NCBI GenBank assembly: GCA_015068645.1
Contig: SVKD01000009.1
Span: 1-64,000, forward strand
Direction: 5' to 3'
Source of the DNA: Oscillospiraceae bacterium
Lineage (GTDB): Bacteria; Bacillota; Clostridia; UMGS1840
Length of the DNA: 64,000 nucleotides
Shown: positions 2,856-19,369 of the stretch, piece after piece
Numbering within the stretch: position 1 is the stretch's first letter
Layout of the letters: each line of letters begins with the position of its first letter
Program-made: the position numbers and the translations under genes
Notes under the pieces: model-generated
The model's input: the letters and a program-made list of their open reading frames with translations, nothing else
Database searches by the model: none
Told to the model about the DNA's origin: nothing

Positions 2856-2867
2856 TTGATTTTCCTC

Positions 2868-5675
2868 CTAACTTAATGAAATGGCAAGAGTAAGTATGTT
2901 ATTACCATTTTCATATTCATATTCCATACTTTCCGTCATTTTCTTAACCATAAAAATTCCGAGACCGCCGATTGCTCTTTTTTCTGCAGAAAGAGTTGTA
3001 TCAGGTTCAGTTGCCTCTAGAGGGTTGTATGGAATACCATTATCAATAAACGAAATGCGGAGTTTTCCACTTTCGATACTGTAGCAAACTGTTGCCAGAG
3101 TTGCCTTACTGTAATTGACTATGTTTGCATAAACTTCATCAAACACAATATTAATTTTATTTGCAATTTTCGGTACAATTTCAATCTTTTTGGAAAGTGA
3201 GTCTGCAAATGCACCTACAACTACGTGAGAATTGCTATCCGGTATAACCGAAATACTTTCGTCACCAAGTATTGCATCAAAATCGAGAGCAAGCATGGTA
3301 ATATCGTCAAACTGCGGAGCCGTCCCCACAAATTGATCAACATCCTCTTTAATGAGTTTACAAAGCCTATTGGGTTCTGTATTTTCCAAAGAATTTACAA
3401 AATCTAAAAGTCTTTGTTCGCCGTAAAGCTCGGTGCTGTTGTTGGTTGCTTCGGTGACACCGTCTGTGTACAAATAAAGCTTATCACCCGGAGCAAGCTG
3501 CAATTCGTTTTTGCGGTAACGGATGCCTTCCATTCCTGCCAAAAGCATACCGCTTCGTGCTTTCAAATATGAAAACTCCTCACCACCTCTTTTAAAAAGT
3601 GGTGGGTTATGTCCAGCATTGGCAAACTTCATAAGTCCTGTCTTCGTATCTAAAATACCGAGCCATGCCGTGACAAACATTCCTGCATCGTTATTTTCGC
3701 AAAGCTTTTCGTTTGCAATGGTAAATATTTCGTCCGGCTCAAGTCCCTGCTCTGCCAAATCTCTGATCACTGTTTTTGCTCTCATCATAAACATCGCTGC
3801 AGGAATCCCCTTCCCGGATACATCCGCAACCAAAAAAGCAATGGTGGAATCACTAAGCATATAAAAGTCGTAAAAATCGCCGCCAACTTCCTTTGCAGTG
3901 ATCATTTCGGCATATAGCTTAAACGCATTATTTTTCGGGAAAACTGTAGGTAGCGAAGAATACTGGATCTGTTTTGCAAATTCCAGTTCTTTATCAATTC
4001 TTGCTGCCGCCTCTTTGATATAGCGTTTCAGCGTACCAACTGTCTGATTGATATCATCAGAGAGGGATGCAAATTCCTCATTGGAACGAACATTCACCGT
4101 AACATTCAGGTTTCCGCTTGTAATCTCGGCAAGATCTTTGTTTATTTTCCTTAAGTTATCAATGATAATTCTCTTGATCAGGAAATAAATCAAAACAAAT
4201 AAAGCAGCGAATATGAGGATTTCCATAAATGTATTGACATACACTGAAACCTCTTTCATAAACATAGCTTCATACTTTGGCATAGCACCGACAATATAGT
4301 ATCCTTCTACAAAACGGTATGCGCAAAGGTATTCTTTGTCGTAGACCATTGACTCAAAAATTTCGCCTTGTGTAGTAGTTTCAGGATCAAATGTGATACC
4401 GATTTTCTGAAGCCCTGCGCCTTCAAAATCGTTTCTGTATGTTACAAGATTAAAATTTTCATCACATATTGCAACAAATCCGGAATTTCCTACATGACGG
4501 TTTTTTGATACTGTTTTCACATACTTGTCTATGTCTGCCCGAAACTGGGTGCTGTCGTATCCAACCTGAATAAATCCACCCTCTGAAAGTGCGATTGCTC
4601 CATATTTTCTAAAAGTAACATCATCATAAGAGGTAGGTCTGTAATCCTGAATATACTGGGACTCTTTCCCCTTTAAAAGTGCAGTTACAAATTCATTTGA
4701 CTGCTCTCCGCTTGTCATATCATAGCCGATATACTCTTGTACATTGGAATCACAAATATATCCGTTCTCATCAATGATGTTGACTTCAATGACATTATAT
4801 TTTTCGGCAAGAGATGAAAGGGTTGCTCCCATTAAGTATTCTTCCTTGATGTTTTCGGTCTTTTTTAAAAGATTGTTATTGGATTCATCCAAGATGTCCT
4901 GATAAACATCTGATAGGCTCATTTCGATGGTTTTATTGGTTTGGACCTCACTCATGCCTGTTTGCAATACAGAAGAAAATGAGCTTGTGGCAACAAAAGC
5001 AATGATAATACAAATTAAAAGCCAGCTTTGGAAAGTCTGTGAAATCTGTTTTTGTTCTTTTTTCGAGTCAGACTTTTCTCTGCCAATTAAAGATACTACC
5101 AAAACCGCAATCCCAACAGCCAATCCATTACCGATTACCATAGGTAATGTGCATATTTTTACAAATTCAAATGCGTTGACCGCATCATCCATATTGGTAA
5201 AGAATATCATCAGCATATGAAGCACTTCTGTAACCATACCAATACCCATACCATACAGCCAGGTTGGCTTCTTATCGTCAAACATATATGTTCTTAGGAT
5301 TGCTGCAATAAAACCCGCAAGAATGGTTGATACTGAGCAGGCAATCTGCGTATATGTTCCGGCAAGCCCGAAATACACGGCAACAAAGCGATAAATACCT
5401 CCTATCAGTCCTGCTATGATGCCTGCAGGAGCACCAAAGATAAGACCTGCACAAAGAGGTGCGGCATCTCTCACATTCATGATAGTTCCGTCACCCACAT
5501 CAAACCCGCCGAAGGTGGTTGTCGCAAAAATCGCCATAAGACCGAAAAGCACCCCGATAATCAATTGCTTAACTTTATGAGACGTTTTAGAAAACGCTGT
5601 TTTTTTGTCAAGTATGTAGAGAAAAATGGCGAGAAGTGCATTATATGATGCAGACATAATTAAATGTGGTGCCAT
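2868..5675 (-). CDS. Membrane SpoIIE-type PP2C phosphatase with LytS-like 5TM, sensor, HAMP and C-terminal HATPase
   Basis: 935 residues. Residues 1-200 hold five or six membrane segments of the 5TMR-LYT type (GGIYRF motif). Residues about 245-475 form an extracytoplasmic sensor, followed by a membrane helix near 480-500 and a HAMP-like segment near 500-555. A SpoIIE-type PP2C domain occupies about 575-790 with its metal-binding signatures (EVGGDFYDF, VADVSGKG, LYTDGVTEA, FDDITML). A GHKL anti-sigma-type ATPase is fused at about 800-935 (VFDEVYANIVNYS, GGLGIFMVKK). In known partner-switching modules such phosphatases dephosphorylate STAS proteins, and the ATPase domain phosphorylates them. 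Having both in one protein, next to a STAS gene, suggests a self-contained switch. Start: ATG after AAGGAGATG. Confidence 0.92.
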   Translation of the reverse strand: MAPHLIMSASYNALLAIFLYILDKKTAFSKTSHKVKQLIIGVLFGLMAIFATTTFGGFDVGDGTIMNVRDAAPLCAGLIFGAPAGIIAGLIGGIYRFVAVYFGLAGTYTQIACSVSTILAGFIAAILRTYMFDDKKPTWLYGMGIGMVTEVLHMLMIFFTNMDDAVNAFEFVKICTLPMVIGNGLAVGIAVLVVSLIGREKSDSKKEQKQISQTFQSWLLICIIIAFVATSSFSSVLQTGMSEVQTNKTIEMSLSDVYQDILDESNNNLLKKTENIKEEYLMGATLSSLAEKYNVIEVNIIDENGYICDSNVQEYIGYDMTSGEQSNEFVTALLKGKESQYIQDYRPTSYDDVTFRKYGAIALSEGGFIQVGYDSTQFRADIDKYVKTVSKNRHVGNSGFVAICDENFNLVTYRNDFEGAGLQKIGITFDPETTTQGEIFESMVYDKEYLCAYRFVEGYYIVGAMPKYEAMFMKEVSVYVNTFMEILIFAALFVLIYFLIKRIIIDNLRKINKDLAEITSGNLNVTVNVRSNEEFASLSDDINQTVGTLKRYIKEAAARIDKELEFAKQIQYSSLPTVFPKNNAFKLYAEMITAKEVGGDFYDFYMLSDSTIAFLVADVSGKGIPAAMFMMRAKTVIRDLAEQGLEPDEIFTIANEKLCENNDAGMFVTAWLGILDTKTGLMKFANAGHNPPLFKRGGEEFSYLKARSGMLLAGMEGIRYRKNELQLAPGDKLYLYTDGVTEATNNSTELYGEQRLLDFVNSLENTEPNRLCKLIKEDVDQFVGTAPQFDDITMLALDFDAILGDESISVIPDSNSHVVVGAFADSLSKKIEIVPKIANKINIVFDEVYANIVNYSKATLATVCYSIESGKLRISFIDNGIPYNPLEATEPDTTLSAEKRAIGGLGIFMVKKMTESMEYEYENGNNILTLAISLS

Positions 5676-5708
5676 ATTTTCATCTCCTTATCAGATTTTT
5701 CTTCGCTC

Positions 5709-6005
5709 TTATTCGATGGTCAGAATATCCAAAAAACCTGTAATATCAAAAACTTCCATAATGCTGTCATTCACACCGGTAAGCTTCATACTGCCCTGTG
5801 CGTTCATTGCTTTTTGAGCCTTTAAGATTACTCGAAGTCCTGCGGATGAAACATACTCAAGATTTGCAAAATCAAAGGTAAGTTCCTTAAGCCCTGCAAG
5901 AACGCTGTCAAGTTCATTTTCAAGCTCCGGTGCTGTTTGGGTATCCAGTCGTCCGGATACGGTCAGCGTTACTGCTTCCCCATTAATTTTCTTTTCAATC
6001 GTCAT
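5709..6005 (-). CDS. STAS-domain anti-anti-sigma factor (SpoIIAA/RsbV type)
   Basis: 98 residues, a complete single STAS domain. The central segment FANLEYVSSAGLRVILKAQK carries the conserved Ser-Ser pair, one of which is normally the phosphorylation site. An AAAGGAG ribosome site precedes the ATG. It lies 33 bases before the phosphatase/ATPase gene and 25 after the HD gene in the same operon. The expected role is to bind or release an anti-sigma protein depending on phosphorylation. No sigma factor gene is in this operon, so the final target is unknown. Confidence 0.9.
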   Translation of the reverse strand: MTIEKKINGEAVTLTVSGRLDTQTAPELENELDSVLAGLKELTFDFANLEYVSSAGLRVILKAQKAMNAQGSMKLTGVNDSIMEVFDITGFLDILTIE

Positions 6006-6030
6006 TGTAATAATCTCCTTTTATATAAAT

Positions 6031-6561
6031 TTAATTTTTTTGTTTCCACGATTCTATTGGCTCGTAGAGGAATGATAATTCCGCCATGGGAGTTTCCAAG
6101 CTCTGTGCCAAATTTTTGACAGCTTTTCGGATTTCGGGTGAAAAATCCATGTACCAGTCGAGAGTTTCCAAGATATATTTCCGCTTGAACTCCTCACTTG
6201 TGATCAGTGCACATTGTAAATTGTGCAATCTGTCTGCCGCCTTAACTGCATAAGCAATGGAATTTTGCTTAATGGCACCCACATATTCTGCCATATTGTA
6301 CCCATGTTCTTTTGTCAAAAGTTTTACAGCTTCAAGAATTTCTTGATTTGCATATGTTAAAACGTCTTCTTCGGTTGCATCGGTATCCTCCAATAAATCG
6401 TGAAAGAGTGCCGCAATCTGATAATTTTCGTCAAATCCCTGACTTTTTACAATCTCTGAAACTGCTATCGGATGGGTGATATAATCATCACCGCCGATAC
6501 GCTTTTGCCCTTGATGCTTTTTTGTTGCAAATGCCAAAGCACGTTGCATGCGTTCTGTCAT
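6031..6561 (-). CDS. HD-domain hydrolase resembling the (p)ppGpp hydrolase half of RelA/SpoT
   Basis: About 176 residues. HD-superfamily metal ligands are visible: an early His in THPIAVSE, the HD pair in ALFHDLLEDTDAT, and the later Asp in KAADRLHNL, the arrangement of SpoT/Mesh1 small alarmone hydrolases. The ATG at 6561 overlaps the synthetase stop as TGATG and has AAGGAGGGG seven bases upstream, so I prefer it to the GTG at 6567. Coupling to the synthetase gene makes guanosine tetra/pentaphosphate the likely substrate (inference). Nucleotide or phosphodiester hydrolysis of another kind remains possible. Confidence 0.85.
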   Translation of the reverse strand: MTERMQRALAFATKKHQGQKRIGGDDYITHPIAVSEIVKSQGFDENYQIAALFHDLLEDTDATEEDVLTYANQEILEAVKLLTKEHGYNMAEYVGAIKQNSIAYAVKAADRLHNLQCALITSEEFKRKYILETLDWYMDFSPEIRKAVKNLAQSLETPMAELSFLYEPIESWKQKN

Positions 6562-7619
6562 CAACACCCCTCCTTTTGCTTAAGAAGGTGTTTTGCCTGT
6601 CTTTCAGCCTTCTCTTTGGTTCCCAAAGAGATTTTTAAAAACGCTGCAATGGTATCAAAATCGTAGTTTTTATTAAGTAATTCTGCACGGCACAAGAAAC
6701 GTAGTGCAACACTTGAGGAAACAATATCAAGCCCTGCCGCAGATAATGCTTTTTTAGCCAGCTTCATTGCAAGATCATAATTTTCTTGAATCATCTTCTC
6801 AATATCACCAAGCTTTGTGATGCCTAAAAACGCAAGCTGAGGAATATAGCTTTCCGGGTCAATCTCTCTGATTTCCGCACCAGCAATATCCGCAATTTCA
6901 CGAATAATACTTTGCATTTTTCGATTATTGAGAACATACTCGTTCAAAGAAATCATATTGATGGCAACATCATCTGCATCGTCGGTAATAATACGCTGCC
7001 GGATATCTTCCGTATAATCCACCATATTATCACGGGCACGCACAAACTCATCATCTGCCAGTTCCAAAAGACCTGCAAGCCGTGCAAATTGTCGGTTAAT
7101 CTCTCTGGGAACACCAAAATCGCTCTTGTAGCCAATATCATGATGAATAGCTGACCAGGCGTGTTGCAGAATGGTTCTGATTTGCACTTCAAATTTTTTG
7201 CCGCAAATAGCATCAGGCCACTTATCACCAAAAGGAAGTGAACAGATGTAATGCAGGGATAAATATCCAAAGGCATCTTCTTTGATGAGTGCTCTTTTGT
7301 CAGATGAATTTTCCCAGTCTATCACAAAATTCTCTTCAATCTTCTGCCCGATTTGGTCAATTTCATCAGAAAGGAAACAAACCACACGACAACCTAAAAT
7401 ATCGGTAATATCTTCTAAGGTGTTGTAGCCGTCCCCTTTTCTCTCCAACTTCCCTGCCAGGCTTTTTTCTTCTTTCACACGATGCTCAACAGCTAAAACA
7501 GTAAGTCCCAAATCCTTTACGATGTCGGAGAGCATGGTATGTACCGTGTCGCCTAAGGTTACAAAATCGTCCCTTTGTTTTCTGTAATCCTCTAAAATAA
7601 GTCTGCATTTTAAATTCAA
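6561..7619 (-). CDS. (p)ppGpp synthetase, RelA/SpoT nucleotidyltransferase domain protein
   Basis: 352 residues. The catalytic domain occupies about residues 40-185: the ATP-binding basic/Ser region SLAGKLERKGDGYNTLEDI, the DILGCRVVCF strand, and EVQIRTILQHAWSAIHHDI with the invariant Glu-Val-Gln-Ile-Arg-Thr. The C-terminal half is helical and carries none of the TGS or ACT domains of long Rel proteins. The hydrolase function is a separate, overlapping gene. The TTG start has GGAGGAG upstream. It is embedded in a signalling operon and transfers pyrophosphate from ATP to GTP/GDP by family homology. Confidence 0.9.
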   Translation of the reverse strand: MNLKCRLILEDYRKQRDDFVTLGDTVHTMLSDIVKDLGLTVLAVEHRVKEEKSLAGKLERKGDGYNTLEDITDILGCRVVCFLSDEIDQIGQKIEENFVIDWENSSDKRALIKEDAFGYLSLHYICSLPFGDKWPDAICGKKFEVQIRTILQHAWSAIHHDIGYKSDFGVPREINRQFARLAGLLELADDEFVRARDNMVDYTEDIRQRIITDDADDVAINMISLNEYVLNNRKMQSIIREIADIAGAEIREIDPESYIPQLAFLGITKLGDIEKMIQENYDLAMKLAKKALSAAGLDIVSSSVALRFLCRAELLNKNYDFDTIAAFLKISLGTKEKAERQAKHLLKQKEGC

Positions 7620-7631
7620 AATATCTCCTCC

Positions 7632-8588
7632 TTACATAAACCCAAACATGAGCTTAAATAAATCATATATTGCACCGCCTAAGGCTCCAATCAAAAGAAC
7701 CATAAACAGATAAATAAACATACTGAATTTGCTGATTTCGTTATGTTCCATAGTAAAATAGAAATTGTAGTGCGCCTTCATATTGGAATCCCGTTCTTCT
7801 ACCCACTGATAGGTAATTGCAGAGGAACAGTCATATCCTTCCGGCGCATAATTGCGGTTCAACTCTGCTTCAAGACGTCTGATACGGTAACAAGTGGAAT
7901 CATTCATTTCATATTCGTCGCCGATAGAAATGGTGACCAGTGCCTTTCTGATCCGCTGTTCGTGCAGGTCTTTAATTTCGTTAATTTCAGGTGGCAGAAG
8001 CCGCGCCTCATTGATTCTGATGGAATAGCCGTATTTTTCGGAAATAATAGGGCTTTGAATCAACGAATTAATCCTTTCAAACATACTACCAACATCGACT
8101 TTCGATGCAAAAACCTTATCCAAGGTTTTATGAGGTATTCTGAATATCAGGTATGCTTCGTCAGATGTGATATAATCCTTTATAAATTCAAAATTTGCAG
8201 TAATAACCGTTCCGTATGAAACCTTTTTTACCTCCATACCTTCATTTGTAAGATTGATAAGGCTTACCGTTCTGTTGTCATACCGCAATTCTGATGTGTA
8301 TTTTGTTTTTTGAGAATCCACCTTACCATTGGTATTAAAAAGGGCTCTTAATGCGGAGCTATCCGCCAGCATATACGATAAATCAACGATTTCGCAGCTT
8401 TCTATCGCAAAGGGAACAAAAATGTTGACCGTTTTTGTTTCTTTTGCTCCATATACACGCACACTGATATCAACATAACTTCTGCCTTTTGGGTTGATCC
8501 ATTCATTTAAGTAGATTGTGCTTCTGTCATCACCATCAATCCATAATGCCCAGCCATCATCAGCAAATTTTCTTTTTCTGTTACCCAC
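7632..8588 (-). CDS. Unknown protein with C-terminal membrane anchor, in the signalling operon
   Basis: 318 residues, no family recognised. The body is soluble, beta-rich and charged. One hydrophobic segment near residues 290-315 (FSMFIYLFMVLLIGALGGAI) would anchor it with the body on one side. No signal peptide. The GTG start lies 3 bases after the diguanylate cyclase stop and the gene ends 12 bases before the (p)ppGpp synthetase, so it is co-transcribed with both. A receptor or scaffold linking nucleotide signals to the membrane phosphatase is a guess from context only. Confidence 0.75.
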   Translation of the reverse strand: MGNRKRKFADDGWALWIDGDDRSTIYLNEWINPKGRSYVDISVRVYGAKETKTVNIFVPFAIESCEIVDLSYMLADSSALRALFNTNGKVDSQKTKYTSELRYDNRTVSLINLTNEGMEVKKVSYGTVITANFEFIKDYITSDEAYLIFRIPHKTLDKVFASKVDVGSMFERINSLIQSPIISEKYGYSIRINEARLLPPEINEIKDLHEQRIRKALVTISIGDEYEMNDSTCYRIRRLEAELNRNYAPEGYDCSSAITYQWVEERDSNMKAHYNFYFTMEHNEISKFSMFIYLFMVLLIGALGGAIYDLFKLMFGFM

Positions 8589-8591
8589 GCT

Positions 8592-10163
8592 TTATTTCAA
8601 CCCCTTAATTTTTCGTTTATTCTCATACATAGCATCGTCCGCTCTGTTAAATACATCCATAAAATTTGTGTCCTTTCCGAAATCATATCTTGCAAAGCCT
8701 TTTGCAATGCTTACCGGAATTGACTCTTTATCTGTATCCACCGACTTGCTAAGACACTCTTCATCGAAAATTTTAAGAAGTTCCTCTACATCATCAAGGT
8801 CTCTGTTTTGCAGAATCACTAAAAATTCATCTCCGCCGATTCTGAAAACAGGACTTCTTTTGAATATATCTGATATAACCCTTGCCGCACTCACAATAAG
8901 CTTATTACCTACATCATGACCGTATCTGTCATTTGTTTCTTTCAGATAATTAATATCAAAAACGATAACACCAAAAACGATTTCTTTGCTTTCAATTTCT
9001 TTATCAAAATCAGTAATCCACGCCCAATAGGAATTCGTGTTTCTAAGCCCGGTAAGTGAATCACGATAGGCTAAAAGATGCTGCAGTTTCTCGTGCTCCT
9101 TCAGCTGCAACGCCATATTCTCAAATGCAATGCTTAAGAGATTAATTTCATACGTATCGCTCTGTATGATTTCAACATCATACTCCTGATTGGAAAGTTT
9201 CACCGATGCATCAGTTAGTTTCTTTAAGGGATGCACAATTTTTTTAACGATAAAAATTGCGATGCAAGAAAACAACACGGCAAGCAAAAGCACAACAAGT
9301 AGTATCTTAAGAGCTATGTCATATCGTATCTGTCTGATATCATTGTAGCTTGCAGAAATGATCAGCGTCATTCCATTCCTTAATTCTTCGGATACACTGA
9401 GATATTCTTCCGGATGCTCATGAAGCTTTGCGTCTTCGGCGTGCTCTGAATTATAGATGTCTGCACCTTCAAACTCGAGATGTGCAAATCCGTTTTCATA
9501 AATTTTTATATGGTGAACCTTATCGGTCAAAACGCTATAGTCAAAGTCCATACCAACAATACCGATAAATTCGTTATCATAATAAAGAGGCACTACATAC
9601 GAAATCATCATGATATCGATGTTTTTGTTGTTGTATGGCAACATCCAGACGGGTTTTCCTGCTTCAAGCGGTTGCCAATACCAGCCCACGTGTTCAGTAT
9701 CAGATTTATCATAAAGAGATATATCAGTAGGCTCAAAACGAACAAATTCATCCGTTCTTTTCACCTTACTGTAAAAAAGTCCGAATGTGTTATGTGAAAG
9801 CTCGGGTGCAAATCTGAAATAGTACGCCATCGCACCGTCAGTATTGCTTGCTACATCAATAAACATCTCATCAGCTCGTTCTAAAATATCGGCCTGTCTT
9901 TTGGTATCCTCAATATCAGCTTTACTGTTGATAAAATCGAGCACATAGCTTTCCATAATATGTACCGACTTTTCCATATCGCCGAAAATGTCGTTGATTT
10001 GAGAAGCTTCTTTTTCACAGGTGACATTTATATAATCCTCTGTCTGGTGCTGCACAAACTGGTCGACCTCATATATACTTAATCCCCCTATGAACACTGT
10101 AATAGCCAGCATAGCAGATATAAGTGTTATTAAAATTTTAGACTGCATTGAGTGTATTTTCAT
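8592..10163 (-). CDS. Membrane diguanylate cyclase: Cache-HAMP-GGDEF
   Basis: 523 residues. A membrane helix at about 10-30, an extracytoplasmic dCache-like sensor (residues about 40-275, with VGWYWQPLEAGKPVWMLPY), a second helix near 283-305, HAMP near 305-355, and a GGDEF domain from about 360 with an intact FRIGGDEFLVIL active site. The RxxD inhibitory site normally five residues before GGDEF is absent (the local sequence is FKRS), so product inhibition through that site is not expected. It is the first gene of a seven-gene operon. A TTTGTCA direct repeat and a -10-like hexamer lie just upstream (10188-10220). Confidence 0.93.
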   Translation of the reverse strand: MKIHSMQSKILITLISAMLAITVFIGGLSIYEVDQFVQHQTEDYINVTCEKEASQINDIFGDMEKSVHIMESYVLDFINSKADIEDTKRQADILERADEMFIDVASNTDGAMAYYFRFAPELSHNTFGLFYSKVKRTDEFVRFEPTDISLYDKSDTEHVGWYWQPLEAGKPVWMLPYNNKNIDIMMISYVVPLYYDNEFIGIVGMDFDYSVLTDKVHHIKIYENGFAHLEFEGADIYNSEHAEDAKLHEHPEEYLSVSEELRNGMTLIISASYNDIRQIRYDIALKILLVVLLLAVLFSCIAIFIVKKIVHPLKKLTDASVKLSNQEYDVEIIQSDTYEINLLSIAFENMALQLKEHEKLQHLLAYRDSLTGLRNTNSYWAWITDFDKEIESKEIVFGVIVFDINYLKETNDRYGHDVGNKLIVSAARVISDIFKRSPVFRIGGDEFLVILQNRDLDDVEELLKIFDEECLSKSVDTDKESIPVSIAKGFARYDFGKDTNFMDVFNRADDAMYENKRKIKGLK

Positions 10164-10187
10164 TTTATATCATCCTTTCCGGCTATT

Positions 10188-10220
10188 GTATAAAATCAGC
10201 TATGACAAACCTATGACAAA
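10188..10220 (-). promoter_or_regulatory. Direct-repeat promoter element, copy 1 (diguanylate cyclase operon)
   Basis: On the minus strand, TTTGTCA-TAGG-TTTGTCA (heptamers at 10214-10220 and 10203-10209, 11-bp period) is followed after exactly 9 bases by TTATAC (10188-10193). The element overlaps the stop codon of the upstream oxidoreductase gene. Repeat, period and distance match copies 2 and 3. SARP-family activators are known to bind such 11-bp-period heptamers close to the -10. Confidence 0.75.
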
Positions 10221-10768
10221 TTTGAAATACGCTTTTTGGCTTCTTCCATAATAGATGTTACATCTGCGCCAAAAATGTCCAGACCTTCTGCCGCGCAAAA
10301 ACACACATCATCAATCCCATAGAAATTTTGAGCAAGTGCTTTTACATAATCAAATCCAAAATTGTTATGACTGATATATCCACCGGCGGTAGTGATATAA
10401 TACAACTTTTTTGCCTTACATTTGCCAACAGGACGTCCCTCTTCTGAATATTCAAAAGTAATTCCTGAAACCGTGATGTTTTCCAAATAAATTTTTAACA
10501 CGGAGGGAAATGATAAATCCCAAAACGGTGCAGCAATTACAATAATGTCAGCTGTCGAGAACTGTTTGGCATATTCAAATTCCTCACCGGAAAAATCATG
10601 CAGTGCTCTTTTTTCGATCCCCTTATTACAAAGAGGTAACAGGCCCTCTTTGTATAAATTAACTTCGGTTATTTCTCCATCCAATCTATTGAGCAAATGC
10701 CAAGAAAGTTCTGTTGTTCTTGACTGAGGGCGAACACAAGCATTGATCAACAAAATTTTATTTTTCAT
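10211..10768 (-). CDS. NAD(P)H-dependent flavin oxidoreductase, flavodoxin-like fold (azoreductase-like)
   Basis: 185 residues. The N-terminus KILLINACVRPQSRT has the FMN phosphate-binding loop of the flavodoxin-like quinone/azo-reductase family. IIVIAAPFWDLSFPSVLKIY and the TTAGGY segment match the FMN ring-binding loops. It probably reduces quinones or azo or nitro compounds with two-electron transfer, protecting against redox stress; the substrate is not determinable. It overlaps the upstream STAS gene by four bases (ATGA type), an unusual partner. The pair is expressed from the second copy of the direct-repeat promoter. Confidence 0.85.
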   Translation of the reverse strand: MKNKILLINACVRPQSRTTELSWHLLNRLDGEITEVNLYKEGLLPLCNKGIEKRALHDFSGEEFEYAKQFSTADIIVIAAPFWDLSFPSVLKIYLENITVSGITFEYSEEGRPVGKCKAKKLYYITTAGGYISHNNFGFDYVKALAQNFYGIDDVCFCAAEGLDIFGADVTSIMEEAKKRISNLS

Positions 10769-11073
10769 ATAGATTTCTCCGATTCTAACATTTCTAAAAG
10801 GCCCGTCATTTCGAAAACCTCATAAACCATATCGTTAACTTTTTCAATTCGCATTGTTCCCTGATTGGAATTCATTTTTTTATACGCTCCAAGCAAAACT
10901 CTGATGCCCGCCGAAGAAATGTATTCGACCCCGGACATATCAAAAATAAGTTCTTTTGTATCTTCGGACAACTCACTGATTACGGTTGCTAAATTTGGTG
11001 CAGTTGTTGTGTCCAATCTCCCCGTTATTGCAAGAGTCACAAGTTCAAAGTCTCTTTCTACATTGATTGTCAT
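10765..11073 (-). CDS. STAS-domain anti-anti-sigma factor, second copy
   Basis: About 102 residues, one STAS domain with FDMSGVEYISSAGIRVLLGA carrying the conserved Ser pair. It is clearly paralogous to the STAS gene at 5709. An ATG exists at 11079, but the Shine-Dalgarno sequence AAAGGAG sits only one base before it and seven before the ATG at 11073, so the latter is chosen. It probably competes with or feeds into the same phosphatase/ATPase switch encoded at 2868 (inference). Confidence 0.9.
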   Translation of the reverse strand: MTINVERDFELVTLAITGRLDTTTAPNLATVISELSEDTKELIFDMSGVEYISSAGIRVLLGAYKKMNSNQGTMRIEKVNDMVYEVFEMTGLLEMLESEKSI

Positions 11074-11110
11074 AAACATTCTCCTTTCAAAGAATAATTA
11101 CATACATAAA

Positions 11111-11143
11111 ATATCACATTCACTATGACAAACCTATGACAAA
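11111..11143 (-). promoter_or_regulatory. Direct-repeat promoter element, copy 2 (STAS-oxidoreductase operon)
   Basis: Minus-strand TTTGTCA heptamers at 11137-11143 and 11126-11132 with the same TAGG spacer, then 9 bases to TGATAT at 11111-11116. It lies about 40 bases before the STAS start. Confidence 0.75.
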
Positions 11144-11195
11144 TTAAAATTCGAGTAAAAAAAATACGGTCGGAATCTTCCGACCGTAAACAAAT

Positions 11196-11975
11196 TTATG
11201 AATTTCTTCCAAGCAGCAATGCGAGTGTGTCTTCAGCCCAGGAGTACTGGGTCATATACTCTCCATGAAACGGAGGCTTTCCGGTTTGTAAAAACTTGTG
11301 ATAGTCACAGTTGATTCTCGAGGGATCTATTCTGTAATGGTACCCTTCCTGGCAAAACACCTTTTCCGCCCCCACATTGGCCAGTGCTTTTTTTAAATCT
11401 CCCACAAGATGTCTTAAATAATCCATATTTTTAACATCATCTGTATTTTCGGGCCATATAACGGCACATATTTGCTTTCCCGTCATGCCTGCACCGTTTC
11501 TGTCAACAAGCACCGCAAAAAGCTCCTTTGCTTTGGTACGCTTAAAGGCAAGCGCCTCTCCATTTTTTAAAACCTCAAAGTTTCCGAAGCATTTCACATC
11601 AAGCAATGAAACATTCGGATTTTTACTCTTAATATGGTCAATTTCTTTCTGAACATCCTCCGGAGTGATTGGTTTCATCAGATATCCGCTACATCTGAGC
11701 CGAATGGCATTGAGTGCATACTCCTCATACCCCGTACAGAAAACAATTTTGCATTCCGGCTGAATTTGGGAAATCTTTTCAGCCAGGGCAAGTCCACCCA
11801 TACCACGCATATTGATATCAAGAAAAGCGATATCCGCACTATTTTGAGCAATCCACTCAAGAGCAGCTGAACAAACAGAAAAGTCGTAAACCGCTTCGAT
11901 ATCAGGCGAAGCTTTCACAATATTGGTCAGAGCATTCAGCATAGGCCTTTCATCATCCACTGTGATTGCAATCAT
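11196..11975 (-). CDS. SARP-like response regulator (receiver + winged helix)
   Basis: 259 residues. The receiver domain occupies 1-115 with the acidic DDE at 8-10, phospho-acceptor Asp in FLDINMRG (about residue 53), FCTGYEEYA and the Lys in GYLMKPI. A winged-helix/OmpR-like domain of the SARP group follows (about 125-215), then a short BTAD-like tail with FHGEYMTQYSWAE. Such regulators bind heptameric direct repeats with 11-bp period. Exactly that arrangement precedes three nearby operons, so they are its probable targets. The start overlaps the 3' end of the kinase gene by 23 bases, indicating translational coupling. Confidence 0.9.
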   Translation of the reverse strand: MIAITVDDERPMLNALTNIVKASPDIEAVYDFSVCSAALEWIAQNSADIAFLDINMRGMGGLALAEKISQIQPECKIVFCTGYEEYALNAIRLRCSGYLMKPITPEDVQKEIDHIKSKNPNVSLLDVKCFGNFEVLKNGEALAFKRTKAKELFAVLVDRNGAGMTGKQICAVIWPENTDDVKNMDYLRHLVGDLKKALANVGAEKVFCQEGYHYRIDPSRINCDYHKFLQTGKPPFHGEYMTQYSWAEDTLALLLGRNS

Positions 11976-13815
11976 TTCCTGTCCCCTCCTTTGGTATTCT
12001 TATAGTTGCCTTCGTTCCACTTCCGATTTTGCTTTCTATGGTCAGTGTACCGTTACACATCGCCTCAATTCGGCCCCGTATGTTTTTGATTCCGACATGC
12101 TTGGTTTCATCATATCCTGCATTGATATCAAAGCCCACACCGTCGTCGGTTACCTCTACCACATAAGACTCTTTGGTTTCATAAGCAGATATTGTAACAA
12201 TTCCGCCTTCTTCAAGCCCCATAAGACCGTGCTTGATAGCGTTTTCGACAAGGGGCTGAACGGAAAGTGCAGGCAGAAGAAACTCCACAGAACGAAGGTC
12301 GTATTGGATTGTCATATCAGGGAAACGAATCTGTTCAATATCGGTATAGTGCTTGACGTGATTCATTTCCTGCGAAAATGTAATCGGTTTTACATTATCC
12401 AGTTCACTGAAGTTTCCTCTTAAATACAAGCTAAAGTTACGAACCAATTTTGAAGCAGCTTCCGGTTCTGTGATACAAAGCTGTTCAATCGTTCCCAAGG
12501 TATTATAGATAAAATGAGGCTGAATCTGGCTGATCAGAAGGGATATTCGACTTTCTGCAAGCTCTGCCTTTAAAATCATTTTTTCCGTTTCAAGCTCTCT
12601 CGCTCGTATAGCTGCATTGAAACTTTGAGGAACAACCTTCAAAAGCAAGATAAGCGTTGCAACAAAGATTAAAACAAAAATACCTTCCGAAACAATGCCA
12701 CCTTGCCACAAGCCAAAGCTTGTCCCCAAACTATCCAGGATAAATGCAATCATCGGAAGCATCACGAACGCATTGAATATCGTTTTGTTTTTATCTGCTT
12801 TTGAAAAACAAAGAGCAAGAAGCACTATCATTACAAGGCAAATCGCACTTTGAAGTGCTGACCATACTGGCAAGGTATCATAAAATCTCACATGAGTAAT
12901 CGTTGGTGCCAACATACATGCACAAATGAAAAACAAATCCAAAACAGCAAGCCATATCCCAACTTTTTTTGCCTTATTTTTCAGCTGAAAAACTATAAAG
13001 CCCGTCAGCATCAGCATATAAATCATGATTGAACCAATCTGCATTCTTGTATTAAATTTAATGATTTCGCTAAAGAATATCACTCCGTGTGCTTTAAATA
13101 AGAAATAAATCCCCGAACAGAAGATAGCAATGCCAATCAACCATAGTTTTCCATTTCCTTTCATATGAATCAACATCGAGAATATAGCTGTACCCATAAT
13201 CATAAATGCAAACAAGATCAGGGCAATCCCAAAAACCCTGTGTGCACTTCCTTTATTCAACATATCTCTTTCAAAATCTGTTCCGCCATAGGTACTTAAA
13301 TGGTTCAGAAAATCATCAACTGCTCCTGAATTGCCGAATTGATGCGGATTTTTCAGTTTGATCACAATTTCATTTGCACCTTGACATTCATAGCCGATAT
13401 ACATTTCGCCACACATATCCTCACCGGCAATATCCAGCTCCGCATCAAATGGGTGAAATTCTTCTCCATCTTCGGATACTTCACCACCAATATGATTAAA
13501 ATAAAATGCAAGGATTGTGCCTTCGGGTGCATTTCCTACAATCTCTCCCGTAGTGGGAACAAATAACTGAAAATTTCCTTTCAGGGTTACATCACCTTTG
13601 TCTGCGGGAATATGTTCACCTTTGACATATGTTTGCCACTCGCCGTCTGCCACCTGATATTCCCCGACAAACTTTGCGGAAAGATACAAGGCATTCATTG
13701 CCTGATTTCCATAATCTCTTCCTGTATAAACAAAGGTGCAAAGAACAATAACCAGCAAAGATATACATATCCCAATAAAAAATTTCTTATTTAAGTTTTT
13801 TTTCATAGATTTCAT
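11953..13815 (-). CDS. LytS-type sensor histidine kinase with 7TM-DISM-like sensor
   Basis: About 620 residues from the ATG at 13815, chosen because GGAGA lies about ten bases upstream; an earlier GTG/ATG frame extends to 13866. An N-terminal membrane helix, an extracytoplasmic beta-rich domain (about 25-195), then seven or more helices (about 200-395) match the 7TMR-DISM design. A short coiled coil leads to the histidine box SQIQPHFIYNTLG (His about 428), the N box LVENAIKHGL and the G box DDGVGFD. It should phosphorylate the adjacent response regulator. The signal is unknown; in DISM receptors it is often a carbohydrate or other small extracellular ligand. Confidence 0.92.
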   Translation of the reverse strand: MKSMKKNLNKKFFIGICISLLVIVLCTFVYTGRDYGNQAMNALYLSAKFVGEYQVADGEWQTYVKGEHIPADKGDVTLKGNFQLFVPTTGEIVGNAPEGTILAFYFNHIGGEVSEDGEEFHPFDAELDIAGEDMCGEMYIGYECQGANEIVIKLKNPHQFGNSGAVDDFLNHLSTYGGTDFERDMLNKGSAHRVFGIALILFAFMIMGTAIFSMLIHMKGNGKLWLIGIAIFCSGIYFLFKAHGVIFFSEIIKFNTRMQIGSIMIYMLMLTGFIVFQLKNKAKKVGIWLAVLDLFFICACMLAPTITHVRFYDTLPVWSALQSAICLVMIVLLALCFSKADKNKTIFNAFVMLPMIAFILDSLGTSFGLWQGGIVSEGIFVLIFVATLILLLKVVPQSFNAAIRARELETEKMILKAELAESRISLLISQIQPHFIYNTLGTIEQLCITEPEAASKLVRNFSLYLRGNFSELDNVKPITFSQEMNHVKHYTDIEQIRFPDMTIQYDLRSVEFLLPALSVQPLVENAIKHGLMGLEEGGIVTISAYETKESYVVEVTDDGVGFDINAGYDETKHVGIKNIRGRIEAMCNGTLTIESKIGSGTKATIRIPKEGTGNDCNHSG

Positions 13816-14102
13816 AACAATCATTCTCCACAAGTATTTTCTGTGTTCATTGCAGAATTTGTGCAAATTTCAGATACAGGCAAGGATATTTTGTAACATC
13901 GTTCATTGACACATACAGAAAGAAAATGCTACATTGAGAGCAACCATCATTTCTTAAGGTGAAAACCGACCTGTTCTTGATCCGTGTTGAATATTTTAGG
14001 AATCTTCCGCCGAATTCCATTCCATAAAATTTTGTCGTAATTCGATAAAGCCACCTTTTGTTGATTACTCTCTGCAGATAGTCTCAATTTTAAGACTGTA
14101 TA

Positions 14103-14372
14103 TTATAATAAAGCTAATAAAATCAAAGCCGTCAGCATTATCACAACGCCGGCAATCCCAACGTAAGATAAAGAGCGTTTCACTCTCCAAAAGGAAATCG
14201 CCTCACATACGCAGATAACACATAAAGCAATACAACCGCCTAATTCTGTATATGGCGCATTATTTTTTCTTCCCAACATTTCCAGGACTAACCATACAAG
14301 CAATGCAACACCGGAAATAATAGTTGCAACTTTTTCTAAGGTTGTTTTGTCTCCCCATTTATCATTCATCAT
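14103..14372 (-). CDS. Small membrane protein, unknown function
   Basis: 89 residues with three hydrophobic segments (about 16-33, 43-60, 70-88) and little else. GAGGAGTT precedes the ATG. It lies 21 bases after the NlpC/P60-SLH gene and is probably the last gene of the surface-protein operon starting at 19118. The 287 bases separating it from the kinase gene hold no gene I can support. No function can be assigned. Confidence 0.65.
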   Translation of the reverse strand: MMNDKWGDKTTLEKVATIISGVALLVWLVLEMLGRKNNAPYTELGGCIALCVICVCEAISFWRVKRSLSYVGIAGVVIMLTALILLALL

Positions 14373-14393
14373 TTAACTCCTCTTTCTATTCTA

Positions 14394-16322
14394 TCACTTT
14401 ATCTTTACTTTTTCAATAAATCTTTCAAGAATGACAGCAATTTCTGCTCTTGTTACATTATCTTTCGGATTTAATGTGCTGATTGTTTTCCCCGTAATAA
14501 TCCCTGCACCGGCAACATACTGCATAGCAGGAATCGCATATTCGGAAATATCAAAAGCATCATCATAGGAAAGAATATTGGTATTTTCCCCTATGCTTAC
14601 ATCGTATTCCTGAAATTTTGCATATAAATGCAAAACAGATGCAAACTGTTCACGGGTAAGGGATGAATCAGGATGAAAGTCCTTATCATTTTCATGAACC
14701 AAATTATTTTCTTTTGCCCAAGCTATCGCTTCTGCATACCAAGGTGTATCTTCTTCGGTTTCGATGACAGGTTTTGTTTCTTCCATGTTATAAAGAATCT
14801 GCAAAAATTCTGCCCAGGTAATATTTTTACCGGGATGAAAATACTTGTTTTCGTCTCCTTGCATCAGTTTGTTCTTCAAACAATATGCCACCCCGTTGTG
14901 ATACCATTCGTATTCGGGCAAGGGATTATTGTTAAAACTGTAGTACGGAACAAGCGCTACTGTCAGTTCCTCCATCCAGGTTTTCCCGTTACTTCTTTTC
15001 AGTTCCAATGTGTTCACAACACAAGAACGGACACGCTGACGAACTGACGGATTTTCAGGCTGCATGATGGTCCCAACAGCACTGATAACATAATAATTTC
15101 CGTTTCGACTGCCAAGATACATCATTTCGTGACCGTTAAAATAGAGAATGCTTCCAAACGGAAGAGCATCAAGAAATTTCATACTTTCTTCTTTGGACAT
15201 ATACTGCATATCAACCTTCGCCATAGGCATTGCTGATTGCCAGGTGGTATTCCTCGCAAGCTCCATACCAAAGCATTTATACACATTTCTCATATATCCG
15301 GAACAATCATCGGAATTAAGACTTCCACCCCAACCGTAAATATTTCCGAGAGCCGAGAATACAACTTTTGAAATGTTTGTTTTGGTCAATGGTAAAAATC
15401 CGACATGTACTTTTTTATGTTCCGAAATAAGGGTCAGCTTTTTAGAATATGTTCCGTCATCATTTCTTACAGGAATCCAAACAACATAGTTGTGGTATGC
15501 CGAACGGTTATCGATAATCTCGGTAGGCTTTACATCCTTCGCAAGCTCTAAAACCGTTCCCATTGTCAACATTAGATCCGATGTACTTGCACCATCTATG
15601 GAAGTTTCGGTATACACCTTATCACCCCATACAACAAGAACATCATCTGTTTCAATATCCCATGCAGAAATCCATTCCTCTTTATCCCTACAAATGGCAA
15701 CTGAATCTACCGGAATCCAACCTGAACAACAAATGCTCTTTGCAAGATAGTAGTTTCCGTCTTTTGACTTTGATGTAATTACAACAGGTTCGTTGACTCT
15801 GACTGAGGCAAGATACTGATAATCAAAATCGATATCAGTAAGATCATCCCAAATCGCTATATCAGACGGAAAAGTGCGTAGTGCTGTTCTTTTGGTTGCA
15901 ATCCCATAGAGCACTTTTTGTTCTTGTTCTGCATCAGGATTTTGCGTATTTGCAATCATGTTATCATAATCTTCCTGAGTGGCTTTTTCTTCACATTCTA
16001 AATACGTCCAACCAAGATAATAGGAAGCATCTGCCTGACTCGATTTCAGGAGCGCTTCATTTAACGCAATCCCATCTATCGTTTCCGGCTGATTCTTCAA
16101 ATCATACATATTTGTGCCTTTTGTAAAAAGAGTCTCTTCATTGAGTTTTTCAATTTCTTCGTAAGACATAAGTATCTCATCTTCCTGTGTCCAATAGGAA
16201 GGTGATGACATCTCGCTTGTTACATTGGGCAGATAAGATACCCCCGATGCTAAACCATTGACAATCGTGTTGAAAAATAACACAACTGCAAAAATAGTAC
16301 TGAAAATTCTTTTTGTTTTTAT
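14394..16322 (-). CDS. Secreted SH3/NlpC-P60 cell-wall hydrolase with SLH repeats (non-AUG start)
   Basis: The mature protein has an SH3-like region (about 150-300), an NlpC/P60 peptidase core with its catalytic Cys in NSDDCSGYM (about residue 340) and a His in YFNGHEMMYL (about 398), and three S-layer homology repeats at the C-terminus for wall attachment. It should cleave peptidoglycan stem peptides. The only good ribosome site, AAAGGAG at about 16331-16337, leads to ATC/ATA codons, not ATG. From the ATA at 16322 the frame encodes a classical signal peptide (KTKRIFSTIFAVVLFF). The first standard start, GTG at 16283, would cut into this signal. Either a rare start is used or the start codon has mutated. 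Confidence 0.85.
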   Translation of the reverse strand: MKTKRIFSTIFAVVLFFNTIVNGLASGVSYLPNVTSEMSSPSYWTQEDEILMSYEEIEKLNEETLFTKGTNMYDLKNQPETIDGIALNEALLKSSQADASYYLGWTYLECEEKATQEDYDNMIANTQNPDAEQEQKVLYGIATKRTALRTFPSDIAIWDDLTDIDFDYQYLASVRVNEPVVITSKSKDGNYYLAKSICCSGWIPVDSVAICRDKEEWISAWDIETDDVLVVWGDKVYTETSIDGASTSDLMLTMGTVLELAKDVKPTEIIDNRSAYHNYVVWIPVRNDDGTYSKKLTLISEHKKVHVGFLPLTKTNISKVVFSALGNIYGWGGSLNSDDCSGYMRNVYKCFGMELARNTTWQSAMPMAKVDMQYMSKEESMKFLDALPFGSILYFNGHEMMYLGSRNGNYYVISAVGTIMQPENPSVRQRVRSCVVNTLELKRSNGKTWMEELTVALVPYYSFNNNPLPEYEWYHNGVAYCLKNKLMQGDENKYFHPGKNITWAEFLQILYNMEETKPVIETEEDTPWYAEAIAWAKENNLVHENDKDFHPDSSLTREQFASVLHLYAKFQEYDVSIGENTNILSYDDAFDISEYAIPAMQYVAGAGIITGKTISTLNPKDNVTRAEIAVILERFIEKVKIK

Positions 16323-16355
16323 GATGGTTCACTCCTTTATTATGATATATAAACC

Positions 16356-16688
16356 TTATTTATTTTTTATCGCTTTATGGATTTCAGTATCAGCCAAGAA
16401 AATTACAAATAACACTGCACTGACTTTATGAATGATGGAAACAATAGCAACACCATGCACATGCATCAGCACAACGCCTGTGATGAGAGCAATTCCATAA
16501 AACACACGCATCGCGATTTCAAGAGGCGGGTTTCTCCATTCCTTGTTGGTTACAACGGTGTATGCAATCAGTAGTAAAAGCCCTATCAAAGACACGATAA
16601 TATGTGTGATCATCCCTGTGGCACGAAGTAAAAACAGCAATACTGCAATCGCAATCATTGGAATTGAAAATAAAAAATTCTTCTTCAT
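16356..16688 (-). CDS. Four-helix integral membrane protein, unknown
   Basis: 110 residues with four hydrophobic segments. Conserved-looking His residues (GVVLMHVHGVA, IIHKVSA, TEIHKA) lie near the membrane ends, reminiscent of small haem- or quinone-linked membrane proteins, but no family is recognised. It lies 57 bases after the secreted hydrolase gene and 33 before the NlpC gene on the same strand, so it probably belongs to the same operon. Start ATG with GAGGATGAG upstream. Confidence 0.7.
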   Translation of the reverse strand: MKKNFLFSIPMIAIAVLLFLLRATGMITHIIVSLIGLLLLIAYTVVTNKEWRNPPLEIAMRVFYGIALITGVVLMHVHGVAIVSIIHKVSAVLFVIFLADTEIHKAIKNK

Positions 16689-16745
16689 CTTATTCTCATC
16701 CTCTATTCATATAAATAATTTTTGGGAACAAATGGGAATTCCCTT

Positions 16746-19118
16746 TTATTTTTCAATGAAATACATCGCTTCTTCTTCGGCAACAAGGGTTAACATGTGA
16801 TCGTCATCAATATAAAAATTTGACAAATAGATTTGGGTTGCAGTCTCGATACCTTCGCCCTTTGTTACGTGAGCCAAAATTAAAGTCCCGTTACCTTTAT
16901 CTTTGCCTTTTACGGTAACCTTGCTAAGTCCCACAGGATAATACTCAGAGGGAACTTCTTCCGGTGGATAATCGGTGTTTTCTTCCGTCACCATCAGTTT
17001 GTCTTCAGAGTAAGCAAACACACGCCATTCGTAACCCTTTTCATATTCATATTCAAATACGTGTTCCGCTTCGTAGTTATGTCTCATATCTGTATGGAAC
17101 AGTTGCGGGGCATACGGAATTTCCACGCTAATTACACCAAGTGCATATGGTGCGATTTCTCCCTGATTGAAATAAAGCACCAAGGAATTTTTGGTAAGAT
17201 AAAACTGAACATAACCAAGATATTCTTTCACGTAATCGCATGTATAAACATCAGAAGATTCAGGAGCAATTTCTTTCAATTTCTCAACAAATAAATTTGT
17301 TACGTAGTCTGACAAAGAAGCATCAAGCATACTTTCTTCAATAACTTCTGAAACTGACATTTCCGCATCAGAGCCTACGTGGTATGTTCTTGAATCCATT
17401 ATTTTTGACGGATGAGCTCCACCTATATTTACATATTTGTGATTAATAAATGAAAGATAGCCCCAAATTCTGTAAGGTTGTTCGTAAGTAAGTTCATAAA
17501 CAAAAGGTTTAAAATCTTCGCCCATTTGTTCTTTCAGCGTAAGTGCATCCTCTTTTTTTGCTCTTGCTTCTTCTATAAACCTCTCAGCATCCCACAAATA
17601 ATCAGCATTGATGTTATCCAGGTAAGGGATGTCATTGGGATTTTTTATAACAGGATAATATGCAACTGCTTCTATTAAAACATTGCCTTCCTCATCGGTT
17701 ATGGTTTCTTCAATTTTTTTTGCAGAAACATCATAGGCATTCATCGGGGGATCAATGTGAATTGTTTTGGTGTCACCATACCAATGCACCTCACATTCAA
17801 ATGCTTCAGAGATTGCTCTTAACGGAACTAAAGTTCTGCCATCTTTAATTTTTGCAGGAACATCGAGAGCTATTTCTTTTCCATTAAAATACATTTTGTT
17901 TTCGCCGATGGTAAGTTGCAAATGATCATTCGCTCTATTTGCTGAAACAATTTGTTTTCCGTCATCAGTGGAATAATAAACTGCACAGCCCATGGTTTCA
18001 AAAATCGCTCTTAAGGGAACTAAGGTTCTGTCGTTTTCAATGACTGGCTCCACATCAAAGTTCACAATCTTGTTTTGATAACAAACATCTATTCTTTCGG
18101 CATATTTCTCGTTATATGCCGAAAGTCTTTTCGCAACATTTTCCTGAAGATTTCTGAAGAAAAACTGATAGTCGTAAAGATGATAGATACCGTCATCAAA
18201 AAGCTTACCGGGATAATCTTCCGGCTTTACGTCTGTAACCTTCAACGCTCCTCTTTCTTCGTCTATGTATGCACCTGTAAGATTAGGAATTTCTTCTTTG
18301 ATATTCCCTGAATAATCGGTAAAGCAAGCGCCCTGGTTAAGAGTCTTGTCTGCAACTTCGGATGTTGTTTTCCAATTCAGGGGATTTATGGAATATGTCT
18401 TTTCATCTTCACCGATTATTAAAGAAGATGTAATATCTTTATCCTCGCTGTTAAATGCAACAATAACACCCGTATCTGTTTCTCCTTTGGCAGGCTTAAG
18501 ATGCGGATATTCTGCCACTTCGTCTTCTGTGAGTTTCCAACCGATAGCATATGCAGCAACAAGTCGTCTTTGATATTGCGGCTCGTCAAACAAATCCTTC
18601 ATCAAGCGAATAATCAAATCTGCCCCCTGGGAAAATCCTGCAAGAATTAATGGTCTGGAAGCATCTGTTTGGTCTGCATAGAATAAAAATGCCTGTTTCA
18701 CATCCTCATAAGCTATGGAAAGATACTTTTCCTGTTCCTCCTCACTGAGACTGTAAACCGGGAAAGTGGCTTGTCTGTAATAAGGTGCATAGATTCTTGC
18801 CACATCCTCATAAATACCAAGCTCCATATTGATAGCGCCGTCAAAGCTCTGGCGATATTTTTCATCCGTTATATCAGAATTGAAATTCCCCTCTTTGCCC
18901 ATATCAACAGTCGGGCAAACAAAGAAAAGGTCTGCTTCCTTTTCCTCTCCCAGATTCCAACGCGACCAGTAAAACATATTGGAATAATCAACATATTCGT
19001 CCTCCGGTGCGGATACCACAAATATTTCCTCAGCTAAATCATCTGCCGCCAATGCCGTAAACGATGACAAACAAAGCACAACTGCAATCAATAAACTTAA
19101 AAATCTTTTGGTTTTCAT
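16746..19118 (-). CDS. Secreted multidomain protein: alpha/beta hydrolase (DUF3089-like), stalk domain, DUF4163/DUF3298
   Basis: 790 residues with a cleavable signal peptide (MKTKRFLSLLIAVVLCLSS, then ALAA). Residues about 30-330 form an alpha/beta hydrolase, with nucleophile Ser in LILAGFSQGADL (about residue 159). Two 'copper amine oxidase N-terminal-like' stalk repeats follow at about 350-460 (each with RTLVPLRAI), which are structural and do not imply oxidase activity. Residues about 460-690 resemble the DUF4163-DUF3298 pair of RsiV/PdaC-type surface proteins (INHKYVNIGGAHP). Likely an esterase, or a surface sensor/hydrolase, in the wall. First gene of the surface operon, with direct-repeat promoter copy 3 about 130 bases upstream. 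Confidence 0.85.
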   Translation of the reverse strand: MKTKRFLSLLIAVVLCLSSFTALAADDLAEEIFVVSAPEDEYVDYSNMFYWSRWNLGEEKEADLFFVCPTVDMGKEGNFNSDITDEKYRQSFDGAINMELGIYEDVARIYAPYYRQATFPVYSLSEEEQEKYLSIAYEDVKQAFLFYADQTDASRPLILAGFSQGADLIIRLMKDLFDEPQYQRRLVAAYAIGWKLTEDEVAEYPHLKPAKGETDTGVIVAFNSEDKDITSSLIIGEDEKTYSINPLNWKTTSEVADKTLNQGACFTDYSGNIKEEIPNLTGAYIDEERGALKVTDVKPEDYPGKLFDDGIYHLYDYQFFFRNLQENVAKRLSAYNEKYAERIDVCYQNKIVNFDVEPVIENDRTLVPLRAIFETMGCAVYYSTDDGKQIVSANRANDHLQLTIGENKMYFNGKEIALDVPAKIKDGRTLVPLRAISEAFECEVHWYGDTKTIHIDPPMNAYDVSAKKIEETITDEEGNVLIEAVAYYPVIKNPNDIPYLDNINADYLWDAERFIEEARAKKEDALTLKEQMGEDFKPFVYELTYEQPYRIWGYLSFINHKYVNIGGAHPSKIMDSRTYHVGSDAEMSVSEVIEESMLDASLSDYVTNLFVEKLKEIAPESSDVYTCDYVKEYLGYVQFYLTKNSLVLYFNQGEIAPYALGVISVEIPYAPQLFHTDMRHNYEAEHVFEYEYEKGYEWRVFAYSEDKLMVTEENTDYPPEEVPSEYYPVGLSKVTVKGKDKGNGTLILAHVTKGEGIETATQIYLSNFYIDDDHMLTLVAEEEAMYFIEK

Positions 19119-19244
19119 AGAACTACCTCCTAAATAGCCGGATTACCCTGAACATATTTTTTCTTTGATTATGATATCAACAATTCATTTCCGTTGTTCT
19201 TTTCTTCTTGTTTTTTCTTCATGTAAATATCTTTTGACTTAATC

Positions 19245-19277
19245 ATATCAAATTTGATATGACAAACCTATGACAAA
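19245..19277 (-). promoter_or_regulatory. Direct-repeat promoter element, copy 3 (surface-protein operon)
   Basis: Minus-strand TTTGTCA heptamers at 19271-19277 and 19260-19266 with the TAGG spacer, then 9 bases to TGATAT at 19245-19250, identical in layout to copies 1 and 2. A short palindrome (ATATCAAATTTGATAT) spans the space to the -10. The 5' leader to the ATG would be about 115 bases. Confidence 0.75.
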
Positions 19278-19300: not shown

Positions 19301-19369
19301 AATTGTCGTAATTCCTTTAGTTACAAAGAATTACGACAATTTCCTGAAATTACCGATTTGGGTGATATG
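19301..19369 (+). repeat. Hairpin-tail repeat, copy D (partial)
   Basis: Inverted arms AATTGTCGTAATTC (19301-19314) and its exact complement (19328-19341) are followed by TTCCTGAAATTACCGATTTG and GGTGATATGTTA, similar to the start of the tail in copies A-C. The tail stops at the last codon of the AhpF-like gene. The hairpin may also terminate that minus-strand operon. Confidence 0.5.

Follow-up and report, generated by a model that had tools for sequence, protein, structure and literature searches.

Which protein reads a promoter element that recurs, letter for letter, ahead of three operons lying close to a single kinase-regulator gene pair? We address this question for the first 64,000 nucleotides of contig SVKD01000009.1 of an Oscillospiraceae bacterium (forward strand; this whole stretch is called the window), where the element, hereafter the box, is a pair of 11-bp direct repeats standing just upstream of a -10 hexamer. 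The box is very probably the binding site of the response regulator encoded at the same locus, a SARP-like activator of the OmpR type carried on a receiver domain; phosphorylation of this regulator, its binding to DNA, activation rather than repression, and transcriptional read-through are steps that we infer, while the analysis itself shows the boxes with their geometry, their rarity in the genome and their conservation beside the regulator, the change of the box along with the parts of the regulator that contact DNA, and the predicted fold. The window holds three boxes:

10199-10220, minus strand: box 1, two 11-bp direct repeats TTTGTCATAGG TTTGTCATAGC; precedes the diguanylate cyclase operon
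11122-11143, minus strand: box 2, TTTGTCATAGG TTTGTCATAGT; follows directly on the regulator gene with its terminator, a position also seen in relatives, and precedes the STAS-oxidoreductase operon
19256-19277, minus strand: box 3, TTTGTCATAGG TTTGTCATATC; precedes the secreted-protein operon, which runs towards the kinase-regulator pair

The box and its promoter geometry

The first-pass annotation of this DNA had reported an 18-mer, TTTGTCATAGGTTTGTCA (TTTGTCA-TAGG-TTTGTCA), on the minus strand at 10203-10220, 11126-11143 and 19260-19277, before the diguanylate cyclase, STAS-oxidoreductase and secreted-protein operons. All three copies are exact and lie where stated; the sequence common to them is longer than the 18-mer (TTTGTCATAGGTTTGTCATA) and occurs exactly three times in the window, each time ahead of an operon. 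A mismatch search of the whole genome (1.76 Mb) returned four exact copies, none with one or two mismatches, and six with three mismatches, which look like background; by our own estimate the chance expectation of exact copies, over both strands, is about 5e-5 per 18-mer. The annotation had named many copies unrelated to promoters, or no conservation in relatives, as signs against its proposal. As to the former, the genome holds one further exact copy (contig 7, position 31525), and a -10 and an operon follow it; all exact copies are promoter-placed (4/4), and three of the four lie within 7.3 kb of the regulator gene. A match with three mismatches at 13621-13638, on the opposite strand and inside the kinase gene, was taken as chance. 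The oxidoreductase gene upstream of box 1 (10211-10768) runs into the box with its stop codon, and the first half of the box (within the 18-mer at 10203-10220) codes for the last residues of that protein and the stop (L S stop).

The distance to the -10 had to be revised. The annotation had placed a -10-like hexamer 9 bases after the 18-mer, and a -10-like sequence does follow every copy (TNATA at offset 9 after all four copies in the genome), but the -10 hexamer that is conserved among 57 distinct related sites begins 12 bp beyond the 18-mer. There it matches TATAAT at a mean of 5.04 of six positions, with at least four matches in 96% of the sites, whereas the hexamer at offset 9 scores only 2.9; TG stands at the extended -10 place in 65% of the sites, and the hexamer of the annotation combines TGn with bases 1-3 of the true -10 hexamer. 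If the box is counted as two 11-bp repeats (22 bp), 8 bp separate its end from the -10. The corresponding elements in the window, together with two terminators that bear on the transcription units, are:

10185-10190, minus strand: -10 hexamer TACAAT of promoter 1, separated from the 22-bp box by 8 bp and placed by its sequence and by the offset in related sites
11108-11113, minus strand: -10 hexamer TATTTT of promoter 2; TGA in front makes it an extended -10
19242-19247, minus strand: -10 hexamer TATGAT of promoter 3; extended -10, again with TGA in front
11165-11188, minus strand: strong intrinsic terminator that follows the regulator gene and directly precedes box 2
19301-19341, minus strand: strong intrinsic terminator, immediately upstream of box 3

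Published SARP promoters carry direct repeats with 11-bp spacing, the 3' repeat lying 8 bp from the -10 (PMC10936776), and the geometry of box and -10 here matches this arrangement exactly. Reading the box sequence 16-18 bp before the -10, we found no -35-like hexamer. Boxes 2 and 3 start new transcription units, because strong terminators lie just upstream of them. A scan for consensus promoters was uninformative here (35 found against 38.8 expected). Ahead of the kinase gene, GAATTACGACAA at 14032-14043 (minus strand) repeats one arm of the terminator at 19301-19341.

The regulator and its linked change with the box

The genes of the presumed signalling pair are the following:

11196-11975, minus strand: response regulator, consisting of a receiver domain, an OmpR-type winged helix and a two-helix stub of the SARP BTA domain (Pfam Response_reg, AlphaFold models)
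11953-13866, minus strand: sensor histidine kinase (His_kinase and HATPase_c, with a membrane N-terminal half), the presumed partner of the regulator, which it adjoins in most relatives

The receiver domain stands at the N-terminus (residues 5-112 according to Pfam) and scores best against the BtsR and LytR models. The C-terminal part reaches 14.3 bits against Trans_reg_C, below the cut-off of 26.2; Pfam BTAD has no match in the regulator, and a PDB sequence search with the DNA-binding domain gave nothing significant, so that structure comparison alone resolved the fold. A model of this domain, predicted from an alignment of 28 relatives (pLDDT 95), compares with EmbR at Z 14.4 and with AfsR at Z 14.0 (131-135 of 138 residues aligned), and with PhoB and other OmpR-family domains at Z of about 10 over about 92 residues. 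The structure prediction supports the guess of the annotation that the regulator is of the SARP type: the predicted fold is closest to EmbR and AfsR, but the BTA domain is only a stub. The model ends two helices beyond the winged helix, short of a complete BTA domain (seven helices in AfsR), and the N-terminal place that the DNA-binding domain takes in SARPs is held by the receiver. In AfsR, BTA-domain helices 3-7 hold sigma region 4; because the present regulator keeps two helices, its polymerase contact must differ, and our guess is that it may resemble that of PhoB. No reliable alignment of the recognition-helix residues with the AfsR contacts T88 and R92 was obtained.

With the SARPs of actinobacteria (AfsR, EmbR, ActII-ORF4) the present system shares an OmpR-type DNA-binding domain followed by BTA-like helices, and two 11-bp direct repeats that end 8 bp before the -10 and replace the -35 element (PMC10936776); unlike SARPs, it has its DNA-binding domain C-terminal to a receiver and its BTA domain cut from seven helices to two, its relatives come from gut Clostridia, its promoters mostly use an extended -10, and its targets here are signalling and surface genes, not antibiotic clusters. 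Receiver, winged helix, tandem 11-bp repeats near the -10 and a pho-box-like sequence recall the PhoB/OmpR response regulators, whereas the fold match to these is shorter and weaker than to SARPs, there is no phosphate link, and the partner kinase is of the His_kinase (LytS-like) type. The kinase has the LytS layout of His_kinase and HATPase_c and the receiver is nearest to the BtsR/LytR models, as in LytS/LytR systems, whose LytTR output domain is replaced here by a SARP-like winged helix. In the literature we found no SARP-type response regulator outside actinobacteria by title or abstract (open-licence papers only, hence weak evidence of novelty).

The box is kept beside the regulator gene in many species, which answers the question of conservation raised by the annotation. 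Searching with the regulator yielded 67 loci (64 at 39-90% identity), and for the 61 regulators compared, that of the window included, we scored the box within 600 bp downstream; under this scoring it is present in 49 of the 61. Regulators of 71-90% identity (six loci) are followed by the identical 20-mer in 6/6 cases, those of 59-65% identity mostly by a box of the TGTAACRCNTTTGTAACG type, and those of 57-59% mostly by TTTGTAAGARGTTTGTCATA. In 872 kb of regulator-centred loci, heptamer pairs with a period of 11 number 58, and each other period between 7 and 22 occurs zero to six times; all boxes in regulator-bearing loci lie on the strand of the regulator. On a broader scale, the window's box type with a -10 (at most one mismatch) occurs in 5 of 391 genomes of the class (reversed control 0), and 24 of the 25 regulator-bearing genomes together contain 41 sites of the general pattern of box plus -10 (reversed control 0), with box types as expected from their regulators. 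These genomes have one to four sites each, so the regulons are very small.

Across dozens of species related to this one, sequence variation in the box accompanies variation in those parts of the regulator that contact DNA. All seven regulators with the recognition helix YLRHL or YFRHL have TTTGTCATAGGTTTGTCATA, all 13 with YIHQL have TTTGTAAGARGTTTGTCAYA, and those with YLRQL (n = 24) are mostly paired with the TGTAACRCNTTTGTAACG (TAAC) type. When box distance is compared with regulator distance after removal of receiver-domain divergence, the partial correlations are 0.49 for helix 2, 0.50 for helix 3 and 0.61 for the wing, values reached by none of 500 permutations, and -0.02 for helix 1. 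Two such regulators occur in the isolate RGIG7261 (at loci L040 and L060), each with a box type of its own next to it; this speaks against an effect of the genome as a whole. Between the heptamers, TAGG is nearly invariant in boxes of the window type (window, L034-L041, L142-L146), in contrast to the TAAC type, in which the bases at this position are variable. In AfsR the last 3 bp of the repeat are uncontacted.

In five relatives (L039, L086-L089) the box also stands directly before the kinase gene, an arrangement that suggests autoregulation there and on which we base that prediction. Additional targets, identified by inspection, are surface proteins, a C39-peptidase-type exporter and conjugation-like genes; in one case (L194 7969, minus strand) the box lies ahead of conjugation-like genes, hinting that a mobile element may have put itself under the control of the regulator.

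Proposed mechanism and competing explanations

In the mechanism that we propose, the neighbouring kinase would most likely phosphorylate the regulator, and two regulator copies would then occupy the pair of 11-bp repeats in head-to-tail orientation, from about -42 to -21, in a promoter that lacks a -35 element there. So bound, the regulator would help sigma-A RNA polymerase to use the -10, in most cases an extended one, which begins 8 bp further downstream. The predicted regulon comprises four promoters: three near the regulator, which serve the signalling, STAS-oxidoreductase and surface-protein operons, and one in trans, which serves a polysaccharide-type operon; read-through from the surface-protein operon may also feed the kinase-regulator pair. 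The annotation had proposed one local regulon, which the three boxes near the regulator support, but with its fourth site in trans the regulon is not purely local.

Several observations weigh against this mechanism, foremost that the box with its -10 occurs in four other genomes of the class where the matching regulator was not found: G003, G008 and G104 have the box and yielded no regulator, and G110 has the window's box type and a regulator of another box type. Loss or missing sequence likely explains these cases, short of proof. In G003 (L035 3086-7606) a surface-protein gene is joined to a truncated cyclase gene, with conjugation-like genes adjoining, as if the kinase-regulator part had been deleted; the G008 box (L142 8494) is near a contig end, the G104 genome (box at L143 9079) is 65% complete, and the G110 boxes lie on contigs of 5-8 kb that may be mis-binned. 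There are, in addition, the 12 of 61 regulators that have no downstream box under the scoring used, among which L076 and L087 show the repeat and fail the -10 rule, and in L086, L087 and L089 the kinase gene is preceded by a box. The correlation test leaves some effects of shared ancestry in place, and box distance correlates with the BTA stub too (partial r 0.45); the correlations therefore indicate that the DNA-binding part and the box change in step, which still falls short of a code at the level of residues.

The genomes G003, G008 and G104 are also what would speak for a different, distantly encoded regulator as the one that binds the boxes, with the local regulator merely a neighbour. 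We regard this as very improbable, because the box type tracks the adjacent regulator, the RGIG7261 paralogues included, because boxes occur in 24/25 regulator-bearing genomes against 5/391 in the class, and because the regulator-less cases are explicable by contig ends, incompleteness or deletion. The same tracking, from species to species, bears on whether a phosphate-responsive PhoB/PhoP regulator could be reading the boxes as Pho boxes. In E. coli the pho box consists of two 11-nt repeats with the core CTGTCAT (PMC4415409), and TTTGTCATAGG is very similar to that core and has the same 11-bp period; yet the genome has no PstC gene over the curated cut-off (one weak match of 39.8 bits against 196), which makes a Pho box unlikely, and phosphate genes follow none of the four boxes. 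The combined evidence leaves a phosphate regulator scarcely credible.

Two further explanations concern what happens at the promoter. Were the local regulator a repressor, a dimer bound beside the -10 could obstruct polymerase; the absence of a -35-like hexamer 16-18 bp before the -10 and the position of the box where activating SARPs sit (PMC10936776) lead us to give repression only a very small chance. The repeat might instead be the -35 region of an alternative sigma factor under the STAS/PP2C partner-switching proteins of operon 1, which sit in a regulated operon and travel with the locus. This is extremely unlikely, since the -10, which resembles TATAAT and is mostly extended, is that of ordinary sigma-A promoters; moreover, the element is a two-copy 11-bp repeat, and no sigma-factor gene was noticed among the listed open reading frames of the locus, for which no dedicated search was made.

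Predicted target operons and distant relatives

The genes behind the three promoters of the window are arranged as follows:

2229-10163, minus strand: operon 1, behind promoter 1 (from the list of open reading frames and domain searches)
10211-11079, minus strand: operon 2, behind promoter 2, with a STAS anti-sigma-antagonist-like protein and a flavodoxin-like oxidoreductase
14103-19118, minus strand: genes behind promoter 3, for a secreted DUF3089/Cu-amine-oxidase-N/DUF3298 protein, a 110-aa membrane protein, an NlpC/P60-SLH protein and an 89-aa membrane protein

Operon 1 encodes a diguanylate cyclase with a sensor domain (8592-10163), a 318-aa protein (7632-8588, no Pfam match), a RelA/SpoT-like synthetase, an HD protein, a STAS protein and a PP2C phosphatase; its last gene (2229-2855) has no family match and, judged by its position, may be the HATPase of the partner-switching set. 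The cyclase gene lies directly behind the box in the window and in L037, L083 and L090, and the boxes at these loci span three types, so the cyclase target is kept while the box changes. The genes for the 318-aa protein, the PP2C phosphatase and the STAS protein come after the kinase-regulator pair in many relatives. At the fourth promoter (contig 7) about 252 nt separate the -10 from a GtrA-like gene, which heads a run that by inspection, with no domain search made, resembles a polysaccharide operon (acetyltransferase-, flippase-, glycosyltransferase- and sugar-transferase-like genes); a search for a riboswitch in the leader of about 252 nt (L034 9525-9813) found no matching Rfam family. The locus as a whole would respond to an envelope signal by adjusting second messengers and the cell surface, and the prediction is a small regulon in which c-di-GMP, ppGpp-type and partner-switching proteins are tied to genes for the surface and for polysaccharides.

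A more distant set of regulators (30-48% identity, 27 loci of about 3.4 kb) has 11-bp repeats at the same -10 distance in nine of the 27 loci, with zero to five for other periods and zero to four (mean 1.25) in first-order shuffles of these loci. The repeat sequences are mutually unrelated (ATGGTGCTGAA in L140, TGCAACGGTTC in L123, TTTGAGGAACA in L141), which suggests that a fixed geometry with a free repeat sequence may be general in the family; the signal is a statistical one, and individual distant boxes may be wrong. On balance we favour, with some reserve, the idea of a large family of SARP-like response regulators, mostly from gut Clostridia, in which each member has a private promoter code, that is, a fixed geometry (11-bp tandem repeat, 8 bp, -10) and a freely diverging repeat beside its own gene, including distant members (30-48%) with ATGGTGCTGAA or TTTGAGGAACA.

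If this holds, the binding specificity of each member could be read from its genome, and an amino-acid-to-base code could be derived from natural pairs. From sequence alone, the present collection brings together 49 natural regulator-box pairs, in which the geometry is fixed and the sequences covary, and adds a genome that holds paralogues; such pairs are needed to learn how OmpR/SARP-type regulators and their sites change together yet stay insulated, and here the SARP promoter geometry would be seen carried over to the two-component systems of gut Clostridia, an arrangement of which our literature searches gave no earlier example. Beside one distant regulator (L118 1426-1460), at least three head-to-tail 11-bp units TTAGGACTTTA are found, which could be a multi-repeat box or a simple tandem repeat.

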